From positions 1 to 44,635 of IMG/VR virus record IMGVR_UViG_3300044733_002212: DNA of 44,635 nucleotides; one strand, 5' to 3'. Shown one piece after another: positions 2,881 through 35,834 of this stretch (the first letter of the stretch is position 1; every line of letters starts with the position of its first letter). The position numbers and the translations under genes were made by a program. The stretch is from a virus. The notes beneath the pieces are model-generated. The model did no database searches. It saw only the letters and a list, made by a program, of their open reading frames with translations, and was not told the DNA's origin.

Positions 2881-3384
2881 CTAGCGTGGGATGTACTTGT
2901 ACTCCCAGCTCTCAGCAGGCTCCAGATGAAGCCCAATAGAAATCCGCAGTTTGTTTGGTTTGGTAGGAGTAAAGGGGCAGTGCAATAAGCTGGAATCAAA
3001 AATCACTGCCCGGTTTGGCTTGTAGTCAACTACGTCTTCCCCTACTACCAATGCCCCACCCCACTCCTCATTCCAAACAGGTGATGAGAAATGAATAAGG
3101 CTGGTATGCCCCTGGGGACCATCGATGTGCCAGTGCGAGTCAGTGCCTGCTGTTTGTCCATTCACACCAACCCTTTTCACCTTCATCGGACTGAAGTGGT
3201 TTCGAGGGATGTTGTGGTACAACAACCAGCCAAGCCTAGACTCAATGTCAGGCTTGAAGATTCGCCAAACACATGTTTTATCGTCATGACCGCTAAAGGG
3301 GGGATACTCCCAGTGCGGCCCTGACAACATCTGAAGCGCGATGTCCCAGCGTCTAGCATTTAGATAATCATCAATGATGATCAT
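2881..3384 (-). CDS. 2-oxoglutarate/Fe(II)-dependent oxygenase-like protein
   Basis: A compact 167-residue double-stranded beta-helix type protein. The metal triad is visible as H86-x-D88 (HWHID) and H135 (SSLLHCPF), with R147 (KLRISIGLHL) positioned to bind the 2-oxoglutarate carboxylate. Proteins of this class hydroxylate protein side chains or small molecules. Its start overlaps the stop of the next oxygenase by ATGA, and it is the last gene before the capsid leader, so it is made with scaffold and portal. The substrate is unknown; a virion protein is a reasonable inference from position. It belongs to a different subfamily from the three longer oxygenase-like proteins in the window. Confidence 0.8.
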   Translation of the reverse strand: MIIIDDYLNARRWDIALQMLSGPHWEYPPFSGHDDKTCVWRIFKPDIESRLGWLLYHNIPRNHFSPMKVKRVGVNGQTAGTDSHWHIDGPQGHTSLIHFSSPVWNEEWGGALVVGEDVVDYKPNRAVIFDSSLLHCPFTPTKPNKLRISIGLHLEPAESWEYKYIPR

Positions 3385-4013
3385 ATCTTGATGTAGTGGG
3401 TCATCTTTACTGTGTCAATAACTCGAGCCTCAATCACGAAGAAACGCTTCAAACGCTTCCCTTCGTATGGATCGGAGTTATGGATTAGGTTCGATGGGTG
3501 GACAACGAACATCCCCGTTTGAGGGAGAAGCGTATGAACCATCGTCCAGTTCTGCCTTCGTGACTTACCATTTGGGTTCGGGTCCTGCAGCTGTAGGCGG
3601 CCCATCGGGAACTTGTCATCCGAACCCTCTTTTTCGTTCTTGTCGAGATCCAGATAGTAGACACACACATAATGTGAGTCTTTATGGTTATGAGGCTTAG
3701 CTCGTTCACCAGGCTCCATCTTGCGGCAGACGCAGAGGAACTCAATGTCATACACGTCAGGCTCAAGATACTGATCAATGTGCATCATTGAGCGGACGCG
3801 AGTCTTGGCAAATTCCTTAAGCTTTTGTACAGCCGGATCCTCTTCAACAAAGAAGTTATAGCCAGGACGCTGAGGGTCCAGAATATCGATCACATGATCG
3901 TACCGTTGATAGTACTGCTCATGGAGCTCGATCAGCTTTTGCTTCTCTTCGTCCTCAAGAACTAGGTAGTCTTCCAGTACGTGTGTGGGCCACAGCGTAT
4001 GGAGTTTCGTCAC
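3381..4013 (-). CDS. 2OG-Fe(II) oxygenase-like protein, PF13759-like
   Basis: A 210-residue protein with H108-x-H110 (PHNHKDSHY) followed by a YVCVYYLDLD strand, and a distal H178 in VVHPSNLIHNS with basic residues after it (KRLKRF). This is the layout of the phage PF13759-type oxygenase family. It is clearly paralogous to the proteins at 30923-31558 and 29008-29589, sharing the HxH, YY-L and HPs..vH blocks. It overlaps the scaffold gene and the next oxygenase by 4 bases each, so all three are translationally coupled. The substrate is not known; capsid, portal or scaffold are candidates. Confidence 0.78.
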   Translation of the reverse strand: MTKLHTLWPTHVLEDYLVLEDEEKQKLIELHEQYYQRYDHVIDILDPQRPGYNFFVEEDPAVQKLKEFAKTRVRSMMHIDQYLEPDVYDIEFLCVCRKMEPGERAKPHNHKDSHYVCVYYLDLDKNEKEGSDDKFPMGRLQLQDPNPNGKSRRQNWTMVHTLLPQTGMFVVHPSNLIHNSDPYEGKRLKRFFVIEARVIDTVKMTHYIKI

Positions 4014-7149: not shown

Positions 7150-7861
7150 AAGATGGGAGATCGTTATTAGAAGCCTCGAAAAAGGCTGGGAACCTGGCTC
7201 GCTGGGTGTCGGCTAATCCAGCTGCCTTGCCTTTGCTATACAGAGAGTCAGACTGGGATAACCAGAAATCCTTATCGAGCCACTTGTTCTCGGACTGACC
7301 CAGACCATCCATCACCCAATGCACGGTGGCTTTGCGGAGCTTGTTCAGGTTTGGGGTGCTCTTCAGCCCGAGGTCGTGAGCGACCATGCCATGGATCGCT
7401 ACGTGGGTCTGTTCGTCCCTGGAGATATCGGCCGCCAGGGTTCTCAAACCCATATCCCCGTTGAAGCGGAAGAACGGCAGCAGGACAAAGAACACACTGC
7501 GCTCAAGGATCGAAGCCTTGAGAATCGGATGCTCAGGAGCGTCCAGCCATGCACTGCGAATGACTGCAGCCTCACGCTCAGCCTTTGCATCAGTGCCGTG
7601 TGCAGCAACGATGTACGACAGGCCCAGGTCGTGCTTGTCCTCATCTTGCTGGTTAGACAGCAACGCTTCGACGACACCCGGCTTGTTAGGCAGCTCCTTA
7701 TCAAGTCCCTGCTGGAGGAACTCCTTAACAGGGAGCTCAAGAGTACGAAGGGCAAGGGCTCTGTAAAGAGACTCCTCGGCTCCATCAACGAACTGCCCCC
7801 GTTCTACTTGAACGGGAGTCCACTTCCTCTTTCTGGAAATTACATCAAGATAGCTAGACAT
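7142..7861 (-). CDS. nrdB: Ribonucleotide reductase class I small (beta) subunit, cyanophage type
   Basis: 239 residues, much shorter than E. coli NrdB (376). A ferritin-like diiron pattern is visible: E74-x-x-H77 (DEDKHD), E120 (ILERSVFF) and E150-x-x-H153 (DEQTHVAIHG), with an earlier acidic ligand near E29/E30. In standard class Ia proteins the radical tyrosine lies four residues after the first histidine; here that position is L81 (Y83 is nearby). It overlaps nrdA by one base, so the subunits are coupled. Related cyanopodovirus enzymes were once called class II and later reassigned to class I because of such a downstream beta subunit. The cofactor and radical type cannot be read from the sequence. 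Confidence 0.85.
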   Translation of the reverse strand: MSSYLDVISRKRKWTPVQVERGQFVDGAEESLYRALALRTLELPVKEFLQQGLDKELPNKPGVVEALLSNQQDEDKHDLGLSYIVAAHGTDAKAEREAAVIRSAWLDAPEHPILKASILERSVFFVLLPFFRFNGDMGLRTLAADISRDEQTHVAIHGMVAHDLGLKSTPNLNKLRKATVHWVMDGLGQSENKWLDKDFWLSQSDSLYSKGKAAGLADTQRARFPAFFEASNNDLPSYG

Positions 7862-9234
7862 TACTCAGCACAAGAAACACAATAGTCCTCATCTTGCTCA
7901 AATGAGAAGATGTCTTTATACTCATCATCAAGAATGGCCGAGGCATCATCCTTACGAAGAGTGTCGGGCATCACCTGCAATGCGTAGTAGAGAGACGTTT
8001 GCGGTGAAGCAAGCCAGTCCTCGATAAATGCGTTGTCATAAGTAACAACGTCACTCCACGAATTGAAGCTATACCCATGCAGCAGACCCGTGCTGTCAAG
8101 CATTTGCATGATGCCATTAGCTACGGACTTGTAGGCTTCCCAGCCGACCTCTGCAGCAATTTCGACAGGACCATAGTTGACGGACATAACGCCAAGCGTC
8201 CCAGAATCCCTGTCAACTTCCCTGGCTATAGGAGGGGCAATCTCAGGCGTTGTGACAAAACCGTCTAGATCTGTGTACCGGTAGCTACAGCTAGCAGTGG
8301 GGGCAATGGTGAATGCCCTCTCCATGCCGTAGTAGCGGGCAACAGCAGCGGCCTCAAGGATGCCTTTGTACATCGCTTGAGCCAGGCGATTGGCAGTGCT
8401 GTCGTTGTGCTGATAGCTGTTCACTTCAGCCAACGCAACGCCAAACTCTTGATAGGTCACCCCATAACGCCGTAGCAGGTTGGCGAGCCCCAGCATTCCG
8501 AGACCGACTTGCCGATCTTCGTCTGGAGAGAGGTACTCCCCGCTCTGTTCAACACCTGTTCGGGCGTGTAGTTCGCACAAGTCCCGCATTCCGTCTGGAA
8601 ATGCGCTCGGAAGGTCATCGAGCTCGCATGCGCCGAGGTTGACATGCTCCAATAGACAGGTTCCCCGTGATCGCAGATAGATTTCCAGGCAAACGTTACC
8701 CCGGATGCGATTTCCGTCATTATCAAACTTGACTTTGTTGAGCCAGATGTCACCACTTTGAATCTTCTTTAGAAGTGCTTCCTTGATCTCATCGCTGGCA
8801 CGATGCCACCAGAGGGGCGTGATATCCACACATCGCTTCACCCAGGGCAGTTCAGCCCTACTCACATTGATGAATTCAAGAATGTCTGGGTGGCTTAAGT
8901 CGAGGTGCAGAACCACTGCCCCGTTCTTGTAGATACCACCGCGCCGCAGTATCTCATTTAGGGAAGAATAGATCTTCCCAAAGGAAACAGGCCCGCTGGC
9001 CACAAGGCCTTTGCCGTTCTCCTCCCCCTTGGCACGCAGCTTGGAGAGGTGGACAGCAACGCCGGCACCATATCGGAGGGCGTGGGATACGAAGCGCCAA
9101 CTGGCTTCGATTCCATTGGGCCCCTCCATCTCGTCTTCCACCACGAAGACGGTGCAACTAACGGGGAGGCGGCTATCTGGATTGTCGATCCAGGTCTGTA
9201 CTCGGCCCGTTCGGGCAATCTTCGAGGTGGACAT
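7861..9234 (-). CDS. nrdA: Ribonucleotide reductase class I large (alpha) subunit, reduced form
   Basis: 457 residues against about 750 for cellular NrdA; the N-terminal ATP-cone region is absent. The catalytic parts are complete: C27 and C203 as the redox pair, N180-x-C182-x-E184 as the active-site triad with the thiyl cysteine, paired Y416-Y417 for long-range radical transfer from the beta subunit, and a C-terminal CVSC (452-455) that accepts electrons from thioredoxin. It makes dNDPs for phage replication. Without the ATP cone, overall activity inhibition by dATP is probably lost, which would suit a lytic phage. It is followed directly by nrdB and preceded by the MazG-like gene. Confidence 0.92.
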   Translation of the reverse strand: MSTSKIARTGRVQTWIDNPDSRLPVSCTVFVVEDEMEGPNGIEASWRFVSHALRYGAGVAVHLSKLRAKGEENGKGLVASGPVSFGKIYSSLNEILRRGGIYKNGAVVLHLDLSHPDILEFINVSRAELPWVKRCVDITPLWWHRASDEIKEALLKKIQSGDIWLNKVKFDNDGNRIRGNVCLEIYLRSRGTCLLEHVNLGACELDDLPSAFPDGMRDLCELHARTGVEQSGEYLSPDEDRQVGLGMLGLANLLRRYGVTYQEFGVALAEVNSYQHNDSTANRLAQAMYKGILEAAAVARYYGMERAFTIAPTASCSYRYTDLDGFVTTPEIAPPIAREVDRDSGTLGVMSVNYGPVEIAAEVGWEAYKSVANGIMQMLDSTGLLHGYSFNSWSDVVTYDNAFIEDWLASPQTSLYYALQVMPDTLRKDDASAILDDEYKDIFSFEQDEDYCVSCAE

Positions 9235-16816: not shown

Positions 16817-17659
16817 TCAGAGCGAACTAATCGCGCTCTTGCAGGCCTCATCAGTGGCCTTTACATAACGTAACGATGTCTCCACATCGGCATGCCCCAT
16901 CAGCTCCATGATCGTGCGGGGGTGGGTGGTCTCCCCCAGCCAGGTGCCGAAGCTGTGGCGCAGGCTGTGCCAGACATAGTCCTCCCCATAGCCGCAGAAG
17001 TCGCGAACCTTCTTGAACGCTCGGTAGAGCTGATCTTTGTTGGACCAGTCGTCTTGAAACAAGTACGGCTGCTCTAAACGGTTCTTGACAACGGGATGCA
17101 GCAGCTGGTGCAGCGGCACCGCCCGCACATTGCGGCCCTTGGTCTCCCGACCTGGCTTGCCCCCAACCCACACCACGTTGGCGGAGAAGTCGAGGTCTTC
17201 TGCTTTGAGCTTGAGCAGCTCGCCCTGGCGCACGCCTGTGTAGGCGCTGAACACCAAGGCATCGGCCAGGTCCTGCCGGTCAAACACATCAACGGCCACA
17301 AAGGCCATGCGGGCCACTTGGTCCTTGCTGAAGTAGGTCAGGCGGTGCTGACCCTCCTTGAGCCGGTCCACGCTTGGCCAAATGACATTGTGTTCTTCCG
17401 CCTTGAGCGTCCACTTGATGGCGGTCGATCCAACGGAGAGAATCCTGTTGATGGTTGAGTTGGAGCGGCGTTGATCCTGGAGCTCCGAGATGAACTCGTG
17501 CCACCAGGCCACCTTTCCCATTCTGCTGAGTGGGAGTGATCGGCCACAGTATTTGGTGATGTGACCGGCATTGATTGCGTTGGTCTTTGCTGAAGGTAGC
17601 CGCTTCCACTTGGTTTTCCAGGTGTAGTCAAAGGCTTGTCCCCAGGTGTAGCTGCTCAT
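16817..17659 (-). CDS. int: Tyrosine recombinase / phage integrase
   Basis: 280 residues. The catalytic set is complete: R144 (YTGVRQGEL), H231-x-x-R234 (HSLRHSFGTWL), H256 (LMGHADVETS) and nucleophile Y265 (SLRYVK), with a lysine in the beta hairpin near 168-174. The N-terminal 100 residues form the core-binding SAM-like domain. Integrases of this type in T7-like cyanophages are proposed to allow rare lysogeny, but integration is seldom observed. The start overlaps the MarR-like gene by ATGA, and the attP-like tRNA-Leu segment lies just downstream. Confidence 0.95.
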   Translation of the reverse strand: MSSYTWGQAFDYTWKTKWKRLPSAKTNAINAGHITKYCGRSLPLSRMGKVAWWHEFISELQDQRRSNSTINRILSVGSTAIKWTLKAEEHNVIWPSVDRLKEGQHRLTYFSKDQVARMAFVAVDVFDRQDLADALVFSAYTGVRQGELLKLKAEDLDFSANVVWVGGKPGRETKGRNVRAVPLHQLLHPVVKNRLEQPYLFQDDWSNKDQLYRAFKKVRDFCGYGEDYVWHSLRHSFGTWLGETTHPRTIMELMGHADVETSLRYVKATDEACKSAISSL

Positions 17660-28841: not shown

Positions 28842-29042
28842 TCAACCCTTAAAGATATTCTTGATTTGTTGAATCTTGTCGTCTTCCTTGCGAACCACCT
28901 TCAGGTAGGTCACGAGGGAAAGCAGCACCTGAGCAATGCTGTTTTCCTTCAGCTTGCTGGCGCCGACAACTTCAGAACCCAGAAACAGGGCGAAGAAAAC
29001 GAGGGCCTCATACGAGACCTTCAGGCCGAATAGAGTAATCAT
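28842..29042 (-). CDS. Small membrane protein, holin candidate
   Basis: 66 residues from ATG 29042. A longer start at 29144 would lie deep inside the oxygenase gene and is less likely. It has one hydrophobic segment (VSYEALVFFALFLGSEVVG) and a charged C-terminus (VVRKEDDKIQQIKNIFKG). The LFLGSEVVGASKLKENS segment resembles a short protein widespread in cyanophages. It overlaps the upstream oxygenase gene by 35 bases and is followed by the C39-like protease. A holin role is inference. Confidence 0.65.
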   Translation of the reverse strand: MITLFGLKVSYEALVFFALFLGSEVVGASKLKENSIAQVLLSLVTYLKVVRKEDDKIQQIKNIFKG

Positions 29043-29589
29043 TGTAATTGGGATTGAATGAGGTGAAATCTGTAGCGAAGCAGAGACGCTCTTCGTTGGT
29101 GTTATTAGGAAGAGTGCTATGCACAATGTGGCCCGGATGAACAACCATCATTCCGGGGTATGGGCTGATCCGTTTAAATACATTCCCACCAGAACCTGTT
29201 TGTGGGTCTTCATAAGCGCACCACATGGACCCTGCTGCGGGATCTTGGATTAGCAAGTCACCAGAGCCAGGGGGAACCTTGAGGTAGTAGATAGCAACCA
29301 ACAGGTCCCATGGGTGAGTGTGAGGTGTAACCGCGAAATTTCCGCGCTGCGCTTGTAGCCAACCGCGCTTAACCTTGAAGGTTTCTGGCCTCCCCACAGT
29401 GGTCATCACCTCGTTAGCTCGACTCTCAAAACAAGAGGCAAGGAGCTTGAAGCCTGGAGTATTAACAAGCCTCCAGGCGTTATCGGTTGTAGCCGGTGTG
29501 GTTAGGTGAGTCCACTCCTCTAAGCACTGATCCAGCAACTCACTATGATCAAACACCCCAACAGGTGTCGGAAATAAAAGGTGAATCAT
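29008..29589 (-). CDS. 2OG-Fe(II) oxygenase-like protein, last gene of the modification cassette
   Basis: 193 residues. The metal site is seen as H90-x-H92-x2-D95 (TPHTHPWDLLVAIYYL) with distal H157 (VVHPGHIVHSTLPNN) and R168 (ERLCFATDF). The PPGSGDLLIQDP turn is typical of PF13759-like oxygenases. It overlaps the radical SAM gene by ATGA, so both are made together. It is a paralogue of the proteins at 30923-31558 and 3381-4013. Expected chemistry is Fe(II)- and 2-oxoglutarate-dependent hydroxylation. Its target is not known; fibre or other tail proteins encoded just upstream are the prime candidates. Confidence 0.82.
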   Translation of the reverse strand: MIHLLFPTPVGVFDHSELLDQCLEEWTHLTTPATTDNAWRLVNTPGFKLLASCFESRANEVMTTVGRPETFKVKRGWLQAQRGNFAVTPHTHPWDLLVAIYYLKVPPGSGDLLIQDPAAGSMWCAYEDPQTGSGGNVFKRISPYPGMMVVHPGHIVHSTLPNNTNEERLCFATDFTSFNPNYNDYSIRPEGLV

Positions 29590-30923
29590 GCAGGAATAAG
29601 CTCAACAGGGCGCAGACCAAATGGGTCCTGACGCTCCGGTCGAATATCTCCAACAATATTGGTAAGAATTAGACCAGTGGCGATAAAGAGTGCTTCAGCG
29701 AAGAAAGCCACATGGTCGAAGTAAGCATTATTACAGCTGACCTCGAACAACTCGCCTTGCAGGAACATGCAAGATCCCATGCAGCCTTGAAGCATGGGGC
29801 ACCCAGCACACTCAGCTCGGTGCTTCCAATGCGTAGCTGTATTGAGCTTGACATTCTCCATATCAAGCATATGACCAATCTTATGGCTTTGACCGTTGCC
29901 GGCAAAAGCCACTTCGGAGGTGTTCTGACAAGTCAGGACATTGCCTCGCAGGTCAACAGCAATTTGATCCTCACTGTCCATGGAGCATTTCTGGCCGAGA
30001 ACACGAGCTGGACGAAGCTTTTTCCATGAATCCAGCCAGGTTGAAAGCCGAAACTGCAACACATCAAAATTCCTAAGAATGTCACTGTTGTGCATCTCGG
30101 CGAAACCTTGGTTCGCAAACTTCTGGTACTCCTCGGGGCGTAGAGACATACTCTTACCACCTTCGTCATAGGCATCAACCATGCCACCCTCACCCAGCGA
30201 CACATCAGGATTGCCAGTAAGTTCCCGGAAGAAATTAGCAGCTGCAACCCGCGACGTATTTAGACGGTTGAGCATAGGGTTGAAGGACATCCGTCCTACC
30301 CTTCCCATCTTCTCGTAAAGATAAAGCCAGACTTCTTTCTTAGAAGGGATGGTAAGAGGGTCAGGGCCCCGAACAGCTTGCCCAGGTCCATCATGAGAAA
30401 TAGCCATGCTGAATCCCAGGTCATAAAGCCAATCAACCCATTCCTTGGTGAGCAGTGATCCGTTTGTGATGACGGACATCCGAATGTTTGGATAAGCTGC
30501 ACGGATGCGCTCGGCCAATGGCTTGAACGTCTTTGCATATACCAGTGGCTCTCCACCCCAGAATTCAATCTTGCGACCCAGACCTCCTTCCGGTGGCTTA
30601 AACCAGGAGGTAAGGCTGGTCATGAATTCATCCACAAGAGGTACAGACATCTCGTCTGCATGCGGTACAAACCGCTGTGAGCAGTATTCGCAGGAGTAGT
30701 TACAGCTCAAGCCCATCTGGATCTTGATCATCTTCGGCATGCTGCTCTTGCCAAGCGGTGTTTGCTCGGACACTGCAGCTACAGAACCGCCAAATTGCTG
30801 GGGTTCTACAGCCACAACAAACTCGCCCGCTTCATTACGCAGCTCGCTCGTTTGGTTGTTGTAGTAGAGCTTATGCTCCTTCTTGGTGGCAGGATCTTGG
30901 AGGTGAAGAGTGAAGGTGGACAT
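29586..30923 (-). CDS. Radical SAM/SPASM protein (anSME- or peptide-maturase-like)
   Basis: 445 residues. The radical SAM [4Fe-4S] motif is C74-x3-C78-x2-C81 (CNYSCEYC), followed by the GGEP motif at 123-126 (EFWGGEPLV) and a VITNGSLLT strand. The SPASM domain is complete: C313-x13-G-x4-C332, then C372-x2-C375-x5-C381-x3-C385 and C397, enough for two auxiliary clusters. The first 60 residues form a separate small domain, possibly a substrate-binding region. Family members mature sulfatases (formylglycine) or ribosomal peptides (thioether and C-C links). It is sandwiched with one- and four-base overlaps between two oxygenase-like genes in the tail fibre operon. No peptide precursor is adjacent except the Cys-rich fibre. 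Confidence 0.93.
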   Translation of the reverse strand: MSTFTLHLQDPATKKEHKLYYNNQTSELRNEAGEFVVAVEPQQFGGSVAAVSEQTPLGKSSMPKMIKIQMGLSCNYSCEYCSQRFVPHADEMSVPLVDEFMTSLTSWFKPPEGGLGRKIEFWGGEPLVYAKTFKPLAERIRAAYPNIRMSVITNGSLLTKEWVDWLYDLGFSMAISHDGPGQAVRGPDPLTIPSKKEVWLYLYEKMGRVGRMSFNPMLNRLNTSRVAAANFFRELTGNPDVSLGEGGMVDAYDEGGKSMSLRPEEYQKFANQGFAEMHNSDILRNFDVLQFRLSTWLDSWKKLRPARVLGQKCSMDSEDQIAVDLRGNVLTCQNTSEVAFAGNGQSHKIGHMLDMENVKLNTATHWKHRAECAGCPMLQGCMGSCMFLQGELFEVSCNNAYFDHVAFFAEALFIATGLILTNIVGDIRPERQDPFGLRPVELIPA

Positions 30924-31558
30924 TACAGAAGTTCAAAGTTTGGCATTTGGATTTGTTCTCGGAGCCTCATATTGGCAACAACTAATACGCGATCTCTCTC
31001 GCCCTGATATGCCTCACTTTCGTGGAAGACATGGGATGGGTGAATGATTAACATCCCTGGATGTGGCGAGATAATATGATTCTGCGTATGGTTGAATGCT
31101 CTTGAGCGGTAGCTAACCGGATCAATGACCATAAAGCGACCACCGGCATCTCGCATCACTGCAGGATCACCAGAGTCAGTTACATCGAGGTCGGCATAAA
31201 AAACTGCGACATAGTCACAGCCACGATGGCAGTGGACCTTTGATCGCTCGCCCTTTTTCATGACACGGGCAAACATGAAGGTGTCGATGCCTACTGTGTG
31301 TGATTCAGGGTGGCCCTCTACCTGTAAATAAGCCTTCATTCTCTGATGAAGTAACTTACGGTAGGCTTGAACACCAGGGCAAGGAGACCGCAACATGCAG
31401 TACATCTCCCTGGTGTTCATAAGCTGCTCTGGTAAATAACTATTCTGCGAGAAGTAGTTCTTTGCGGTGGATATAAGTGCTTTATGATTGTGATTAGTTA
31501 GCTCTGGCAGTAAGTTGTCAACACCAATATTGACAGGCCAAAGCTGTCTAATTTGCAT
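30923..31558 (-). CDS. 2OG-Fe(II) oxygenase-like protein in the fibre operon
   Basis: 211 residues with H109-x-H111 and D115 (VHCHRGCDYVAVFYADLD), and distal H179 (IIHPSHVFHESEAYQGER) with R188/R190 as possible 2-oxoglutarate ligands. It matches the protein at 3381-4013 in length, motif spacing and flanking words, so one probably arose by duplication. It overlaps the upstream beta-rich gene and the radical SAM gene by one base each (TAATG). The substrate is unknown; its placement points to a tail protein. Confidence 0.8.
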   Translation of the reverse strand: MQIRQLWPVNIGVDNLLPELTNHNHKALISTAKNYFSQNSYLPEQLMNTREMYCMLRSPCPGVQAYRKLLHQRMKAYLQVEGHPESHTVGIDTFMFARVMKKGERSKVHCHRGCDYVAVFYADLDVTDSGDPAVMRDAGGRFMVIDPVSYRSRAFNHTQNHIISPHPGMLIIHPSHVFHESEAYQGERDRVLVVANMRLREQIQMPNFELL

Positions 31559-32271
31559 TAGGTAAGGTGAATTAAGACTTCGGATTCGCCAGTCCAGTAC
31601 TTATAGCCAGCCTTGACCTTAATGACCTCTCCAGGCAGCAGCGATTCGGTCTTGAGCAAAACGATGCCAGAGGTCGTAATTCTGGTACGCGCAAGCATAC
31701 CGCTAAAAGTCTCTAGATAAATCGTAGTGCCAGGAATATGCTGTTGAATTGAGAGTTCAACGTCCTTACCAGCAGTTACTTCTGAGGGTGCAGAGATTGA
31801 GACGGACTGGGTAGATGTTACCTCAGAGACGGTATCGAGTTCTTGAATAACATCAAGACTAGATACATCAAGGTTGCCATCATCAAAGACAAAGATTGAG
31901 ATATTCTCGGTTGAGCTGGTTTTAGCTGGGGTCCAAATTAAAGCCAATCGCAAGAGATCATCTTTAAACGCCCTTGGATTTGACTTAGTAAAGAAGGTTT
32001 GCGTGATGACCTGCTCTACAGTGAAAGACAAATTAGTTTCAGCCTTGGAACTAATCAAGACGAAACCATTGTCTTCGCTTTTGCTGAGAATATCGTCCCA
32101 GGCAAAAGAAAACTGATTAAATTCAGACGTGACCCGCTCAGGACCTTCCCCGTCAATGAAGACAGGTACATCTAGAATGATACCTTCATTGTTAACGGTA
32201 ATTTTACCGCCCGACAGCCTGCTAGTAGACCCCGCAAAGCTTTTGCGTTTGTCAATTGTATATATTTTCAT
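31558..32271 (-). CDS. Beta-rich (Ig-like) tail-associated protein
   Basis: 237 residues without any cysteine. Strand-rich throughout, with a C-terminal region (SVSISAPSEVTAGKDVELSI, then LLPGEVIKVKAGYKYWTGES) that looks like an Ig-like or carbohydrate-binding beta sandwich. It lies 6 bases after the Cys-rich fibre gene and overlaps the oxygenase gene by one base. Probably a virion protein, perhaps an accessory of the fibre. Alternatives are a chaperone or docking protein for the modification enzymes. Confidence 0.6.
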   Translation of the reverse strand: MKIYTIDKRKSFAGSTSRLSGGKITVNNEGIILDVPVFIDGEGPERVTSEFNQFSFAWDDILSKSEDNGFVLISSKAETNLSFTVEQVITQTFFTKSNPRAFKDDLLRLALIWTPAKTSSTENISIFVFDDGNLDVSSLDVIQELDTVSEVTSTQSVSISAPSEVTAGKDVELSIQQHIPGTTIYLETFSGMLARTRITTSGIVLLKTESLLPGEVIKVKAGYKYWTGESEVLIHLT

Positions 32272-32277
32272 GGGAGA

Positions 32278-33483
32278 TTAGCAGTTACAAGCGCATGCAC
32301 AGTTCCATCTGTGACCACAGTTATAATTTCCACAAGCGCCAATATTACCACCCTGGTCTAGAAAATAAGTACCGCCACAGTTGTGACATGCGTAGTCACA
32401 ATCACCATGACAGTTGCAGGCATTCAGATTAGCCAACTGGGCATTGATGGTATTGAAAAAGTGACTGTTGTAATCAGCAGTACCAATACCAGTGACGTGG
32501 CCGTTAGAAAGGGTGATGCTGCTGATAACAGCTCCAGTACTTACACTAGCGTTGCCCTGGCTAGAGACAGTTGCGTGGCTGAGGGTAATGTTACCGCTTA
32601 GGGCACCACCGCCTGAGAGTTGTGAACCAGCACTAACTGTCCGACCTGTTGGAACAGAGGCATTCTGTGCATTGGTCTGTGCAGTATTCGCGTATCCCTG
32701 TGCAGTTGTGTTGGCACTAGAGAGAGTAGTCGAGTTAGCTGCAGTTACAAACGCTGTCGTAGCAATCTGGGTAGTGTTAGTACCTGCAGTTGCTGTAGGG
32801 GCTGTAGGAGTACCACCTAGCCCAGGCGATGTAGCAAAAACCAGCGATCCAGTGCCGGTTTCATCGGAGATAGCTGCAGCCAAGTTGGCGGAAGTGTCCG
32901 ATAGTCCGTAACCAGCAAACGTCGTTGGGTTGCTAGCGCCCGTTACACGGCCCTTAGCATCGACAGTGACAGAGCGGTATGTGCCAGCAGTTGCACCGGA
33001 AGCAGAAAGCTTCTCAGTCGTCACTGAACCATCAGCAAGGTCGCCAGTTGCAATGGTGCCATTGGCAATCATCGCGCTTGTTACCGTGCCCGTATCAGAG
33101 GTGGTGACAATGCCGGCAGGAAGCGGAGCAGTGGTTGCAGCAGTGACTTGGCCCTGTGCGTTAATGGAAAGGACAGGAACAGCTGTAGAGGCTCCGTAAT
33201 TACCAGCAGTTACGCCGGTAGAGGCCAGCTTTCCAGAAGCAATAGCTGCAGAGGCGTTGATGTCTGCATCAACAATGGTCCCATCAGCAAGATGGGTTGA
33301 AGTAACGGACCCAGCGGGGAGGTTGCTGAGGTCCTGGCGGAGCAGAGGGCGACCACCAGCCGTTGTACCGTCATGTACAACAACTGTATCTTTGGTGGTA
33401 TCAACAGTGATCTCACCCTCAGCACCAGTAAAAGTGTTGTGTTGCGTCGTAGTTCCGCGACGCAGTCTAAGAAGTTTTGCCAT
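32278..33483 (-). CDS. Second tail fibre-like protein with cysteine-rich C-terminal tip
   Basis: 401 residues. The N-terminus (AKLLRLRRGTTTQHNTFTGA) is the short fibre/hyaluronidase-type start found in phage fibres. The body is a repetitive T/A/S/G-rich beta structure with AINAQGQVT and VDAKGRVTGA modules. There is no cysteine in residues 1-355, then 11 cysteines in 356-401 (positions 356, 358, 362, 366, 369, 384, 389, 395, 397, 399, 401) plus three histidines; the last residue is cysteine. The tip could bind metal, be disulfide-linked, or be a substrate for the radical SAM and oxygenase enzymes encoded in the same operon. The gene starts 5 bases after the main fibre. Confidence 0.85.
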   Translation of the reverse strand: MAKLLRLRRGTTTQHNTFTGAEGEITVDTTKDTVVVHDGTTAGGRPLLRQDLSNLPAGSVTSTHLADGTIVDADINASAAIASGKLASTGVTAGNYGASTAVPVLSINAQGQVTAATTAPLPAGIVTTSDTGTVTSAMIANGTIATGDLADGSVTTEKLSASGATAGTYRSVTVDAKGRVTGASNPTTFAGYGLSDTSANLAAAISDETGTGSLVFATSPGLGGTPTAPTATAGTNTTQIATTAFVTAANSTTLSSANTTAQGYANTAQTNAQNASVPTGRTVSAGSQLSGGGALSGNITLSHATVSSQGNASVSTGAVISSITLSNGHVTGIGTADYNSHFFNTINAQLANLNACNCHGDCDYACHNCGGTYFLDQGGNIGACGNYNCGHRWNCACACNC

Positions 33484-33488
33484 TTCTA

Positions 33489-35834
33489 CTAAATAGTTCC
33501 GAAGTCGATCGTGAGATCAGCGCCGTCGATAACGGCAGCATTATTGATATTTTTTCCGTTGGCGTTTAGGTTGCCACCTAGAGTAGGGGTGGTATCTGAC
33601 TGGATTTGGGAAATACCAGCAGCGATAGAGCTGAAAATACTACCGTTAAAGTACTTAAGTACACTATTGACGGTGTCAAACCACAAGCGCCCCATTGTTG
33701 GAGACGTAGGCTGAGCAGCACTGATGGTATATTCTGCTGCATAGCGATTTACATCAGCTATCGAGCCACCAACATAATTGACGTTGGCAATTGAACCAGC
33801 TACCGTATTGACATTAGAGATTGCACCTGAAACCGTATTAACGCTATTAATTGACCCGGCAACAGTTGTAACATTTGCAGAAACACCAGCGACGGTATTT
33901 ACGCTGATAATGCTATTCTCAACAGTATTAATGTCAGCGATATTATCGACGATAACATTAACGTCTGCTATATTGGTCGCAACCGTTTGAATTTGGGAAA
34001 TGCTGTTACCACAGGTTTCCAAAGCTCCACCACTTTGACCCGCCAGAAGGGGGTCAGCTACGGAACCGAGGTCACTCTCAGTCGAGAGGTCGTTAGCAAC
34101 GACAGCAATATCGTTAAGGTCGGACTGGTTGGGGGTAATTGCACCCCATACATCGCCATCCCAAGCCTTGATGACCTGGGCCAGCGTGTCAAACCATAGG
34201 TCGCCAGGCTGGATGGGGGAGCTGTCGTAGCGGGTCGTAGGGGCATTAGGACCAATCTGATAAAGATCAGAGAAGTTGTTAATGTCTACAACATTGATCG
34301 CAGCAGTTTGTACTGCAGCAATACTCCCAGCAACAGTGCTGACTTCCGTAGCCTTCGGCGTAAGCCGGTGGAAGGTGTAAGTGTGAAGGGTAGCGGTGGT
34401 TTCTACAAGGACACCAAAGCCAGCAGGAAGATTGCTGGTAACCCCAGTGATAGTGACATTATTGCCGGCACCAGCACCATTAGGGATAGTGACCGTACCG
34501 CTGGAAGGGGTGTAAGAAGCACTGAGTTCTTTGATACTGATGATGGTTCCTGCACCGTCCGGGCTATTGATGTCCGGGTTAGCTGCAGGGAAGCTGGTCT
34601 CGTTGGCAATAGGCACAAAGCCGCCAACATCGTCGACCAGATCGATGATGCGCTTGTCGATAGCCGCCGTAGAGGCGATCCGCTGATCACTAGATGACCA
34701 AGTATCTCCAGAGAAGATGGTTTCGCTAGTGTCCTGACGGAAATAGCGCAGGTCTGAGGCAGAGGTCGTGAATACACTGCTGTCATTGACAGTGGCACCC
34801 AGGACCTCAGCATTAGTTACAACAGCACCGTCTGTCAGCTTTGCAAGAGCAATAGTGCCGTCAGCAATCTTGTCGTTGGTGACCGACTGATCAGCTAGTT
34901 TGCCAGTTGTGACATTAAGATCTGCGATCTTTGCCGTTGTTACGTTCTGATCGGCAATCTTTGCAGTGACAACGTTAGCGTCAAGTATCTTTGCAGTCGT
35001 GACATTGCCGTCAGCAATCTTAACCGTAGTTACATTACTGTCGGCGATCTTTGCCGTAGTAACATTCTGATCAGCAATCTTGGGCGTAGTGACGTTGCTG
35101 TCAGCAATCTTGCCTGTTGTGACATTTAGATCAGCGATCTTGGCGGTAGTGACACCGAGATCATTAATCTTTGCCGTTGTGACATTCAGGTTGGCAATCT
35201 TATCCGTCGTGACGTTGCTATCAGCAATCTTAGCTGTAGTAACGTTTTGATCAGCAATCTTTGCCGTAGTGACGTTTGAGTTGGCAATCTTCGCGGTCGT
35301 GACATTGCTGTCAGCGATCATTGAAGTTGCAACAGTCCCTACATCTCCGGTGCTAACGAGGTTGCCACTGGAGTTAGGGAGATTGAGAGTACGATCGGCA
35401 GTGGGATCACCGCCCAGCAAGCTGGTTTCGAACGCATCATCGGTTGCACCCTCAAAGATCAGGCCCTGGCCCGCTGTAAACGATAGGTTGCCGAAAAGCT
35501 CACCACCAGAACGGTCAAGCCGACGCTCAACCGTCTCCTGGGTGTTGTACAGAACTTGGTTGAAGTTCGCGTTCAGGTCTTGGGCACGAACAGTCGAGCC
35601 TGGGTAGAAAGTCGCCTTAGCCGTATCCGCATTGGTAACGCGATAGATGCGAATCTTGGTCCCGTTAGTGGGCGCAGCGTTAAACTGAACCGTAGTAGCG
35701 TTGGCGAGCGTATATGCAATTGTGTCAACACCGTCAAGGCTAACCTTGATATCGGTAGTTGCTAGGTATGGGAAGGTAAAAGAGTAGAGAACGGCAGAAC
35801 CGTTCCCTACATAGGTATTCTCAGCTAGAGCCAT
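33489..35834 (-). CDS. Main tail fibre protein (T7 gp17-like N-terminus)
   Basis: 781 residues. The first 150 match the T7 gp17 tail-attachment domain (TYVGNGSAVLYSFTFPYL; IRIYRVTNAD; AQDLNANFNQVLY). Residues 171-340 form 17 tandem decapeptides of the type NVTTAKIADS. A second region (about 600-700) has VNTVAGSI-type repeats. Two copies of a LWFDT...K..G module (about 549 and 720) suggest an internally duplicated domain. The C-terminus NANGKNINNAAVIDG is a common fibre ending. It binds the host surface; receptor specificity may be shared with the second fibre. Confidence 0.92.
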   Translation of the reverse strand: MALAENTYVGNGSAVLYSFTFPYLATTDIKVSLDGVDTIAYTLANATTVQFNAAPTNGTKIRIYRVTNADTAKATFYPGSTVRAQDLNANFNQVLYNTQETVERRLDRSGGELFGNLSFTAGQGLIFEGATDDAFETSLLGGDPTADRTLNLPNSSGNLVSTGDVGTVATSMIADSNVTTAKIANSNVTTAKIADQNVTTAKIADSNVTTDKIANLNVTTAKINDLGVTTAKIADLNVTTGKIADSNVTTPKIADQNVTTAKIADSNVTTVKIADGNVTTAKILDANVVTAKIADQNVTTAKIADLNVTTGKLADQSVTNDKIADGTIALAKLTDGAVVTNAEVLGATVNDSSVFTTSASDLRYFRQDTSETIFSGDTWSSSDQRIASTAAIDKRIIDLVDDVGGFVPIANETSFPAANPDINSPDGAGTIISIKELSASYTPSSGTVTIPNGAGAGNNVTITGVTSNLPAGFGVLVETTATLHTYTFHRLTPKATEVSTVAGSIAAVQTAAINVVDINNFSDLYQIGPNAPTTRYDSSPIQPGDLWFDTLAQVIKAWDGDVWGAITPNQSDLNDIAVVANDLSTESDLGSVADPLLAGQSGGALETCGNSISQIQTVATNIADVNVIVDNIADINTVENSIISVNTVAGVSANVTTVAGSINSVNTVSGAISNVNTVAGSIANVNYVGGSIADVNRYAAEYTISAAQPTSPTMGRLWFDTVNSVLKYFNGSIFSSIAAGISQIQSDTTPTLGGNLNANGKNINNAAVIDGADLTIDFGTI
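34815..35324 (-). repeat. Tandem 30-bp repeats encoding 17 decapeptides in the tail fibre
   Basis: About 510 bases encode repeats of consensus NVTTAKIAD(S/Q/L), with K at position 6 and I at position 7 nearly invariant. The nucleotide repeats are imperfect, with many silent changes, so they are kept by selection on protein rather than recently amplified. The unit fits a triple-stranded beta-helix or similar fibrous shaft. Confidence 0.9.

Follow-up and report, generated by a model that had tools for sequence, protein, structure and literature searches.

Phage receptor-binding tips are usually regarded as plain protein, sometimes carrying metal or glycan. Described fibre tips of the T4 gp37 and Salmonella phage S16 gp38 type are specialized, repetitive distal ends formed by HxH iron layers or polyglycine helices, and we know of no enzyme that is paired with them. 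Among radical S-adenosylmethionine (rSAM) enzymes with a SPASM domain, the SCIFF/ranthipeptide maturases CteB and PapB are encoded adjacent to a Cys-rich substrate, a small precursor with leader and core, while QhpD modifies a protein subunit and not a free natural product. Here we analyzed a viral DNA stretch of 44,635 nucleotides (G000, hereafter the window; IMG/VR virus record IMGVR_UViG_3300044733_002212, positions 1 to 44,635), in which a tail fibre with a Cys-rich tip is encoded in one cassette with an rSAM/SPASM enzyme. The two genes recur together with few exceptions in other phages. On this evidence the enzyme very probably acts on the Cys-rich tip, and a locus for tail-fibre tip maturation is the likely explanation of the cassette as a whole.

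The window is a T7-like contig of the cyanopodovirus type, in which we found a T7-type RNA polymerase and a T7 tail-fibre N-domain, and its closest DNA relatives are the Synechococcus podoviruses S-CBP42 and Syn5. A first-pass annotation made from the letters alone had described five tightly joined genes, 11 cysteines restricted to the last 46 residues of the fibre, a full rSAM motif with seven SPASM cysteines, and HxH...H motifs in two oxygenases, and all of these observations held. The five open reading frames (ORFs) are on the minus strand in the order Cys-rich fibre, beta-rich protein P0002, 2-oxoglutarate (2OG) oxygenase 1, rSAM/SPASM enzyme and 2OG oxygenase 2, with junctions of +6, -1, -1 and -4 bases. 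The features are as follows.

33489..35834, minus strand: T7-type tail fibre, 781 amino acids, probable anchor of the Mtd_N fibre (PF03906, E 1.7e-16)
32278..33483, minus strand: distal tail fibre and proposed substrate, 401 amino acids, with an Mtd_N attachment domain, a repetitive shaft and a Cys-rich C-terminal tip (PF18454, E 3.6e-14; PHROG tail protein)
32278..32418, minus strand: Cys-rich tip, residues 356-401 plus stop, 11 Cys
31558..32271, minus strand: beta-rich protein P0002, 237 amino acids, with a predicted immunoglobulin (Ig)-like C-domain at residues 155-237 (AlphaFold2 fold)
30923..31558, minus strand: 2OG-Fe(II) oxygenase 1, apparently accessory (PF13759, E 3.2e-11)
29586..30923, minus strand: radical SAM/SPASM maturase, 445 amino acids, proposed tip-modifying enzyme (PF04055, TIGR04085)
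29008..29589, minus strand: 2OG-Fe(II) oxygenase 2, apparently accessory (PF13759, E 1.8e-13)

The distal fibre contains exactly 11 Cys, and their confinement to the final 46 residues has a probability of 1.4e-11 under random Cys placement. Its N-terminus matches Mtd_N at 52.8 bits (cut-off, 26.3), and the T7-type fibre, which lies immediately upstream both in the window and in the relative L006, probably anchors it. The residues preceding the 11 tip Cys are A N D A N A N N A A N, that is, only Asn, Ala or Asp. Family-wide, the residue before a tip Cys (1037 cases) is Asn in 67%, Ala in 14%, Asp in 8% and Gln in 5%, whereas the residue that follows is less constrained. Because these four residues together make up 94% of cases in the tips and 27.5% before Cys in other genes of the same loci, the tip looks like a substrate selected by an enzyme.

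To the tip belong four classes of partner protein: fibres ending in the Cys run (57), proteins whose C-terminal “SKIIC” domain follows the run (22), and proteins in which the run is followed directly by a Hint domain (6) or by a Peptidase_S74 chaperone-like domain (3). The window fibre terminates at its tip, with no Hint or S74 domain after it; such domains are present in the relatives L001 and L020. In L001 (7844-9295), L012, L015 and L024, the first Cys of the Hint domain is also the end of the Cys run, and because the run stops there, autocleavage by Hint could release or ligate a modified tip.

Viral contigs were searched with the window rSAM enzyme, and the best 80 of 122 matching stretches were used. 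Dereplication of the rSAM loci at 90% identity gave 85 representatives, or 52 once those retrieved by the tip pattern were set aside. In nearly all rSAM loci of viral contigs, runs like NCNCDCNC occur in a protein encoded on the same strand, no more than a few genes away. A tip was found near the enzyme in 82/85 dereplicated loci and in 50/52 when only loci from the rSAM query were counted, with the tip gene located before the enzyme gene in some phages and after it in others. The pairing was also examined in reverse by scanning for an exact DNA pattern for N-C-N-C-x-C-N-C irrespective of the enzyme. This yielded 52 plausible genes, and for 47 of these 52 an rSAM gene was present in the same record (41 in the fetched stretch and 6 elsewhere in the record). 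Among the five tip genes that remained, one (L188) duplicates an rSAM-bearing locus, two (L151 and L182) are in stretches that end near the tip gene, one (L167) is an ORF of 61 amino acids, and one (L164) is unexplained. Cultured phages are included: two Achromobacter phages, JWF and 2-1, encode an rSAM enzyme 43-44% identical to that of the window, and their adjacent fibre carries NCNCDCNC(NC)SC, directly behind which a Hint domain opens with FPAGT. The first-pass annotation had proposed such a co-occurrence check of Cys tips and SPASM genes; the pairing proved near-exceptionless both ways, and the unpaired genes at equal frequency that would have spoken against it were absent. Its T7-like setting was right for the window, but the pairing also occurs in several other phage types and in apparent prophages. 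Separately, 12/85 rSAM loci (e.g., L097, L063 and L054) encode a PP-loop-like protein without a Pfam family a few genes away, with an SGGIDST motif in L097.

Two within-family controls separate the tip from its surroundings. Among proteins with the SKIIC domain, an rSAM gene accompanied a Cys-rich tip in 50/52 cases (the two misses are truncated) and a Gly-rich tip in 0/4 (Fisher p 4e-5). Among 70 Mtd_N fibres with a complete C-terminus, a single one, from a close relative of the window, had a Cys tip, and this was the sole fibre accompanied by rSAM. From these controls, enzyme presence tracks the Cys tip rather than the remaining fibre or the tail module, and we rejected operon neighbourhood as the sole explanation of the pairing. 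The same comparison sets the tips apart from those of the T4 gp37 and S16 gp38 type, in that the Gly-rich versions of the SKIIC-domain proteins are found here without the enzyme.

Relatives of the enzyme were also examined in bacterial genomes, where a Cys-rich ORF was detected at 61/80 loci by script and at 2 more by eye. The tip-bearing loci include cultured Limnohabitans, Thalassovita, Nereida, Thalassobacter and Magnetospirillum, and judged from their fibre context we take the Cys-tip loci of cultured bacteria to be apparent prophages. Some diverged chromosomal relatives adjoin YcaO-nitroreductase fusions (Variovorax and Ramlibacter) or a C39-peptidase ABC transporter, as in clusters for ribosomally synthesized and post-translationally modified peptides (RiPPs). 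The chromosomal relatives in Ramlibacter and Variovorax are L331, L340, L343 and L344; those at L331, L340 and L343 adjoin the fusion genes, and these three loci may possibly represent an undescribed RiPP class.

The window enzyme matches both PF04055 and the SPASM model TIGR04085 above cut-off and was assigned to PHROG 1802. Its ten cluster cysteines, namely the rSAM Cys 74, 78 and 81 and the SPASM Cys 313, 332, 372, 375, 381, 385 and 397, are conserved in 84-85 of 85 relatives. An AlphaFold2 model of the enzyme (predicted local distance difference test [pLDDT], 90; predicted template modelling score [pTM], 0.89) had CteB as its closest fold, with a Z of 24.1 over 369 residues that included the N-terminus; with a leader-binding RRE domain in view, we note that the VIA-align range on CteB starts at residue 1. 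ChlB, the sulfatase-maturating enzyme anSME (Z 20.9) and TigE (Z 18.7) came next, and EpeE gave a Z of 13.1. The NCBIfam neighbours of the tested family members include the PapB, QhpD, SCIFF, geopeptide and Nif11 maturases. The window enzyme scores well under every curated maturase cut-off in NCBIfam, and the 20 tested members received no assignment to any named equivalog. Judged by these profiles and the modelled fold, it belongs to an unnamed family within the peptide-maturase branch of SPASM proteins.

The described systems nearest to this family differ from it in defined ways. With the SCIFF/ranthipeptide maturases the window enzyme shares the rSAM and SPASM fold, the complete cluster cysteines and the Cys-rich protein encoded next door, and all 20 tested members match PapB. 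However, it is far under the cut-offs for PapB (50 versus 340 bits) and CcpM, it is phage encoded, and it would act on a tail fibre or virion-type protein instead of a small leader/core precursor. All 20 tested members likewise match the QhpD model TIGR03906, but the window enzyme reaches 44 bits against an equivalog cut-off of 453, and what we propose as its substrate is a fibre tip that bears CxC runs. The likeness to anSME covers alignment and fold over the full length, and the JWF orthologue of the window enzyme carries an anSME annotation. Nevertheless, the window enzyme scores 57.3 bits against the anSME model TIGR03942 (cut-off, 349), and its family pairs with a Cys-rich fibre tip and not with a sulfatase. 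In addition, Gln333 (Gln in 82/84 of the family) occupies the position of the Asp that follows a SPASM Cys in anSME and that we take to be its catalytic base (Asp277 in anSMEcpe). On the low score and the Gln in place of this Asp, we rejected an identity with anSME.

By analogy with these maturases, the product on the tip could well be a thioether, for which we see the chances as evenly balanced. Another rSAM product on the same tip, whether epimerized residues, formylglycine, C-C links or cyclopropanes, is unlikely overall but deserves to be taken seriously. The structural relatives include enzymes of other chemistries, namely anSME (an oxidation), TigE (a cyclopropane) and EpeE (an epimerase), at the Z values given above. 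The top fold match is nonetheless the thioether-forming CteB, and formylglycine formation is less likely because Gln replaces the catalytic Asp of anSME.

A different role for the cysteines, in which the tip is a metal-binding needle whose three chains turn alternating Cys inward onto a metal, with the rSAM enzyme making a smaller change or aiding maturation, seems improbable to us. The tip of T4 gp37, in which His-x-His layers hold iron, offers a precedent, and the most frequent spacing of tip Cys is two (CxC, 469 intervals), which suits a beta-strand with alternate residues inward. Such a needle, however, leaves unexplained both the near-exceptionless pairing of enzyme and tip and the bias toward Asn, Ala, Asp and Gln on the N-terminal side of Cys.

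The two oxygenases of the cassette exceed the PF13759 gathering score of 27 bits, and their HxH...H and Arg residues are conserved across the PF13759 family. Of the rSAM representatives, 38/85 have 2OG oxygenases, which fall into three types. The close relative L006 (rSAM 87% identical) encodes an orthologue of oxygenase 2 without oxygenase 1, and the neighbourhood table of L008 (rSAM 61% identical) contains no 2OG oxygenase. Because of this patchy distribution, the oxygenases appear to be accessory and weaker members of the system. One of the three types is the Asp/Asn beta-hydroxylase family PF05118, and its presence is suggestive in that it fits the Asn/Asp-rich tips. Two further 2OG-Fe(II) oxygenases, one PF13640-like and just under cut-off and one of PF13759, are encoded in the window at 2881-4013 (minus strand) between the capsid assembly protein and major capsid genes. 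The window phage thus encodes at least four 2OG oxygenases, each beside virion structural genes. 2OG oxygenases are frequent in cyanophages, and for those of cyanomyoviruses a role tied to nitrogen status has been proposed (PMC3037559). That the oxygenases and the rSAM enzyme are likewise auxiliary metabolic genes, acting for instance through 2-oxoglutarate and nitrogen status, is nevertheless highly improbable given their tight gene overlap with the fibre, their recurrence in phages of non-cyanobacterial hosts and the peptide-maturase fold of the rSAM enzyme.

A second candidate tailoring activity is a Trp halogenase (PF04820) encoded at other loci. A Trp stands right after the last Cys, either at the C-terminus or directly before the S74 cut site, in 11/12 distinct tips of halogenase loci compared with 0/78 others (Fisher p 2.9e-13, a value that overstates the evidence because as few as 2-3 changes on the rSAM tree suffice). 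L009 is an exception to the link. Halogenase genes beside Trp-bearing Cys tips were noted in L023, L041, L061, L070, L022, L027, L075 and L078. When further Trp-ended tips were sought by DNA pattern, the strict pattern gave no in-frame tip and the S74-form pattern gave 3 stretches with nothing new. With few independent origins, we treat the association of halogenase and terminal Trp as a lead, not as proof.

For P0002, the AlphaFold2 model (pLDDT, 87.8; pTM, 0.82) yields just a common Ig-like domain, the N-terminal part being scarcely compared, and this C-domain (155-237) resembles intimin and the phage Chi neck with a Z of about 10. The sequence of P0002 had no Pfam, PHROG or PDB match and no relative among deposited phages. 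Genes of the P0002 family occur in 39/85 rSAM representatives, mostly beside fibres with a free C-terminus; in JWF-like phages the P0002 slot is taken by a similarly sized gene that the P0002 profile missed. P0002 may be a cap, a chaperone or a minor virion protein, and it probably assists the fibre or is located at the tip. One possible analogy for such a fibre companion is Alteromonas phage A5, in which a fibre gene is accompanied by a cognate chaperone cap (PMC10579305); the abstract of that paper mentions neither an rSAM enzyme nor a Cys tip, and the likeness to P0002 is by description only. The idea that the rSAM enzyme targets P0002 or host proteins, its link to the tip being mere operonic neighbourhood in a tail module, draws on the P0002 genes that adjoin it in 39/85 loci and merits very little credence, since the other 46/85 loci have no P0002 and a Cys tip nearly throughout, fibres with other tips occur without rSAM, and the tip gene lies on either side of the enzyme.

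We therefore return to maturation of the fibre tip and propose the following course. The distal fibre would be made with a C-terminal tip of x-Cys units, in which x is Asn, Ala or Asp. In the cytoplasm, ahead of assembly or in its course, the rSAM/SPASM enzyme, as a phage branch of the RiPP peptide-maturase lineage, would bind this tip and abstract hydrogens, most likely so that thioethers form between Cys sulfurs and Asn, Asp or Ala carbons. A floppy, thiol-rich end would thereby turn into a rigid, redox-stable adhesive tip, carried on the virion and able to influence adsorption, with P0002 helping the fibre or occupying its tip. The 2OG oxygenases, and in other phages the tryptophan halogenase, would add optional hydroxyl or halogen groups, and in relatives whose Cys run is followed by a Hint or S74 domain, removal of that domain would make the modified tip the end of the fibre. 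The first-pass annotation had likewise suggested that the phage modifies its own tip. The reciprocal pairing and the placement of the enzyme in the peptide-maturase branch agree with it, whereas the oxygenases it had included turned out to be weaker members, and the contact of enzyme and tip, the modification chemistry, the presence of a modified tip in virions and any effect on host recognition are put forward as proposals.

Several observations weigh against this proposal. Among the phage representatives, L017, L019 and L101 are without a clear tip (L101 is at a contig edge), and no Cys tip is obvious at 17/80 bacterial loci, of which some are truncated and others lie in chromosomal RiPP-like clusters. 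Many loci share descent and are not independent events, so the counts overstate the independent evidence. No solved relative of the rSAM enzyme has a substrate of the fibre-tip type, and the structural relatives include the other chemistries of anSME, TigE and EpeE.

A broader reading, which we advance tentatively and with slightly more doubt than conviction, is that phages took RiPP-type biosynthesis into tail assembly. The tip would then be a RiPP-like core, cross-linked by the rSAM enzyme, optionally hydroxylated by 2OG oxygenases or halogenated at Trp, exposed through self-cleavage by Hint or S74 domains, and presented to the host as a non-proteinogenic contact surface. The window substrate departs from the short leader/core precursor by which RiPPs are defined, being a 401-residue fibre with an Mtd_N domain; the tip proteins of some relatives have 112-140 amino acids. 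At L100 (2383-2754) and L137 (211-582), a protein of 123 amino acids with 20 Cys (CQKCQTCQGC...NCNCDCNCNC) adjoins one or two weaker rSAM relatives.

Two other genes of the window were noted. This T7-like phage has a phage-integrase family gene at 16817-17659 (minus strand), and an ORF of 457 amino acids at 7861-9234 (minus strand) matches PF02867, the barrel domain of ribonucleotide reductase, over no more than its first fifth.

Our literature search covered open-access PubMed Central papers, and none that it turned up describes phage fibres modified by an rSAM enzyme. The enzyme and substrate types are already known, and their application to a virion tip appears to be new. The cultured carriers, among them Achromobacter phages JWF and 2-1 and the apparent prophages of Limnohabitans and Thalassobacter stenotrophicus CECT 5294, allow direct testing. 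If tip maturation is borne out, recombinant fibres might not be in their active form, and so-called auxiliary genes, including those for rSAM enzymes, 2OG oxygenases and Trp halogenases, would be virion-tailoring genes, adding enzymatic chemistry to host recognition across several phage types.

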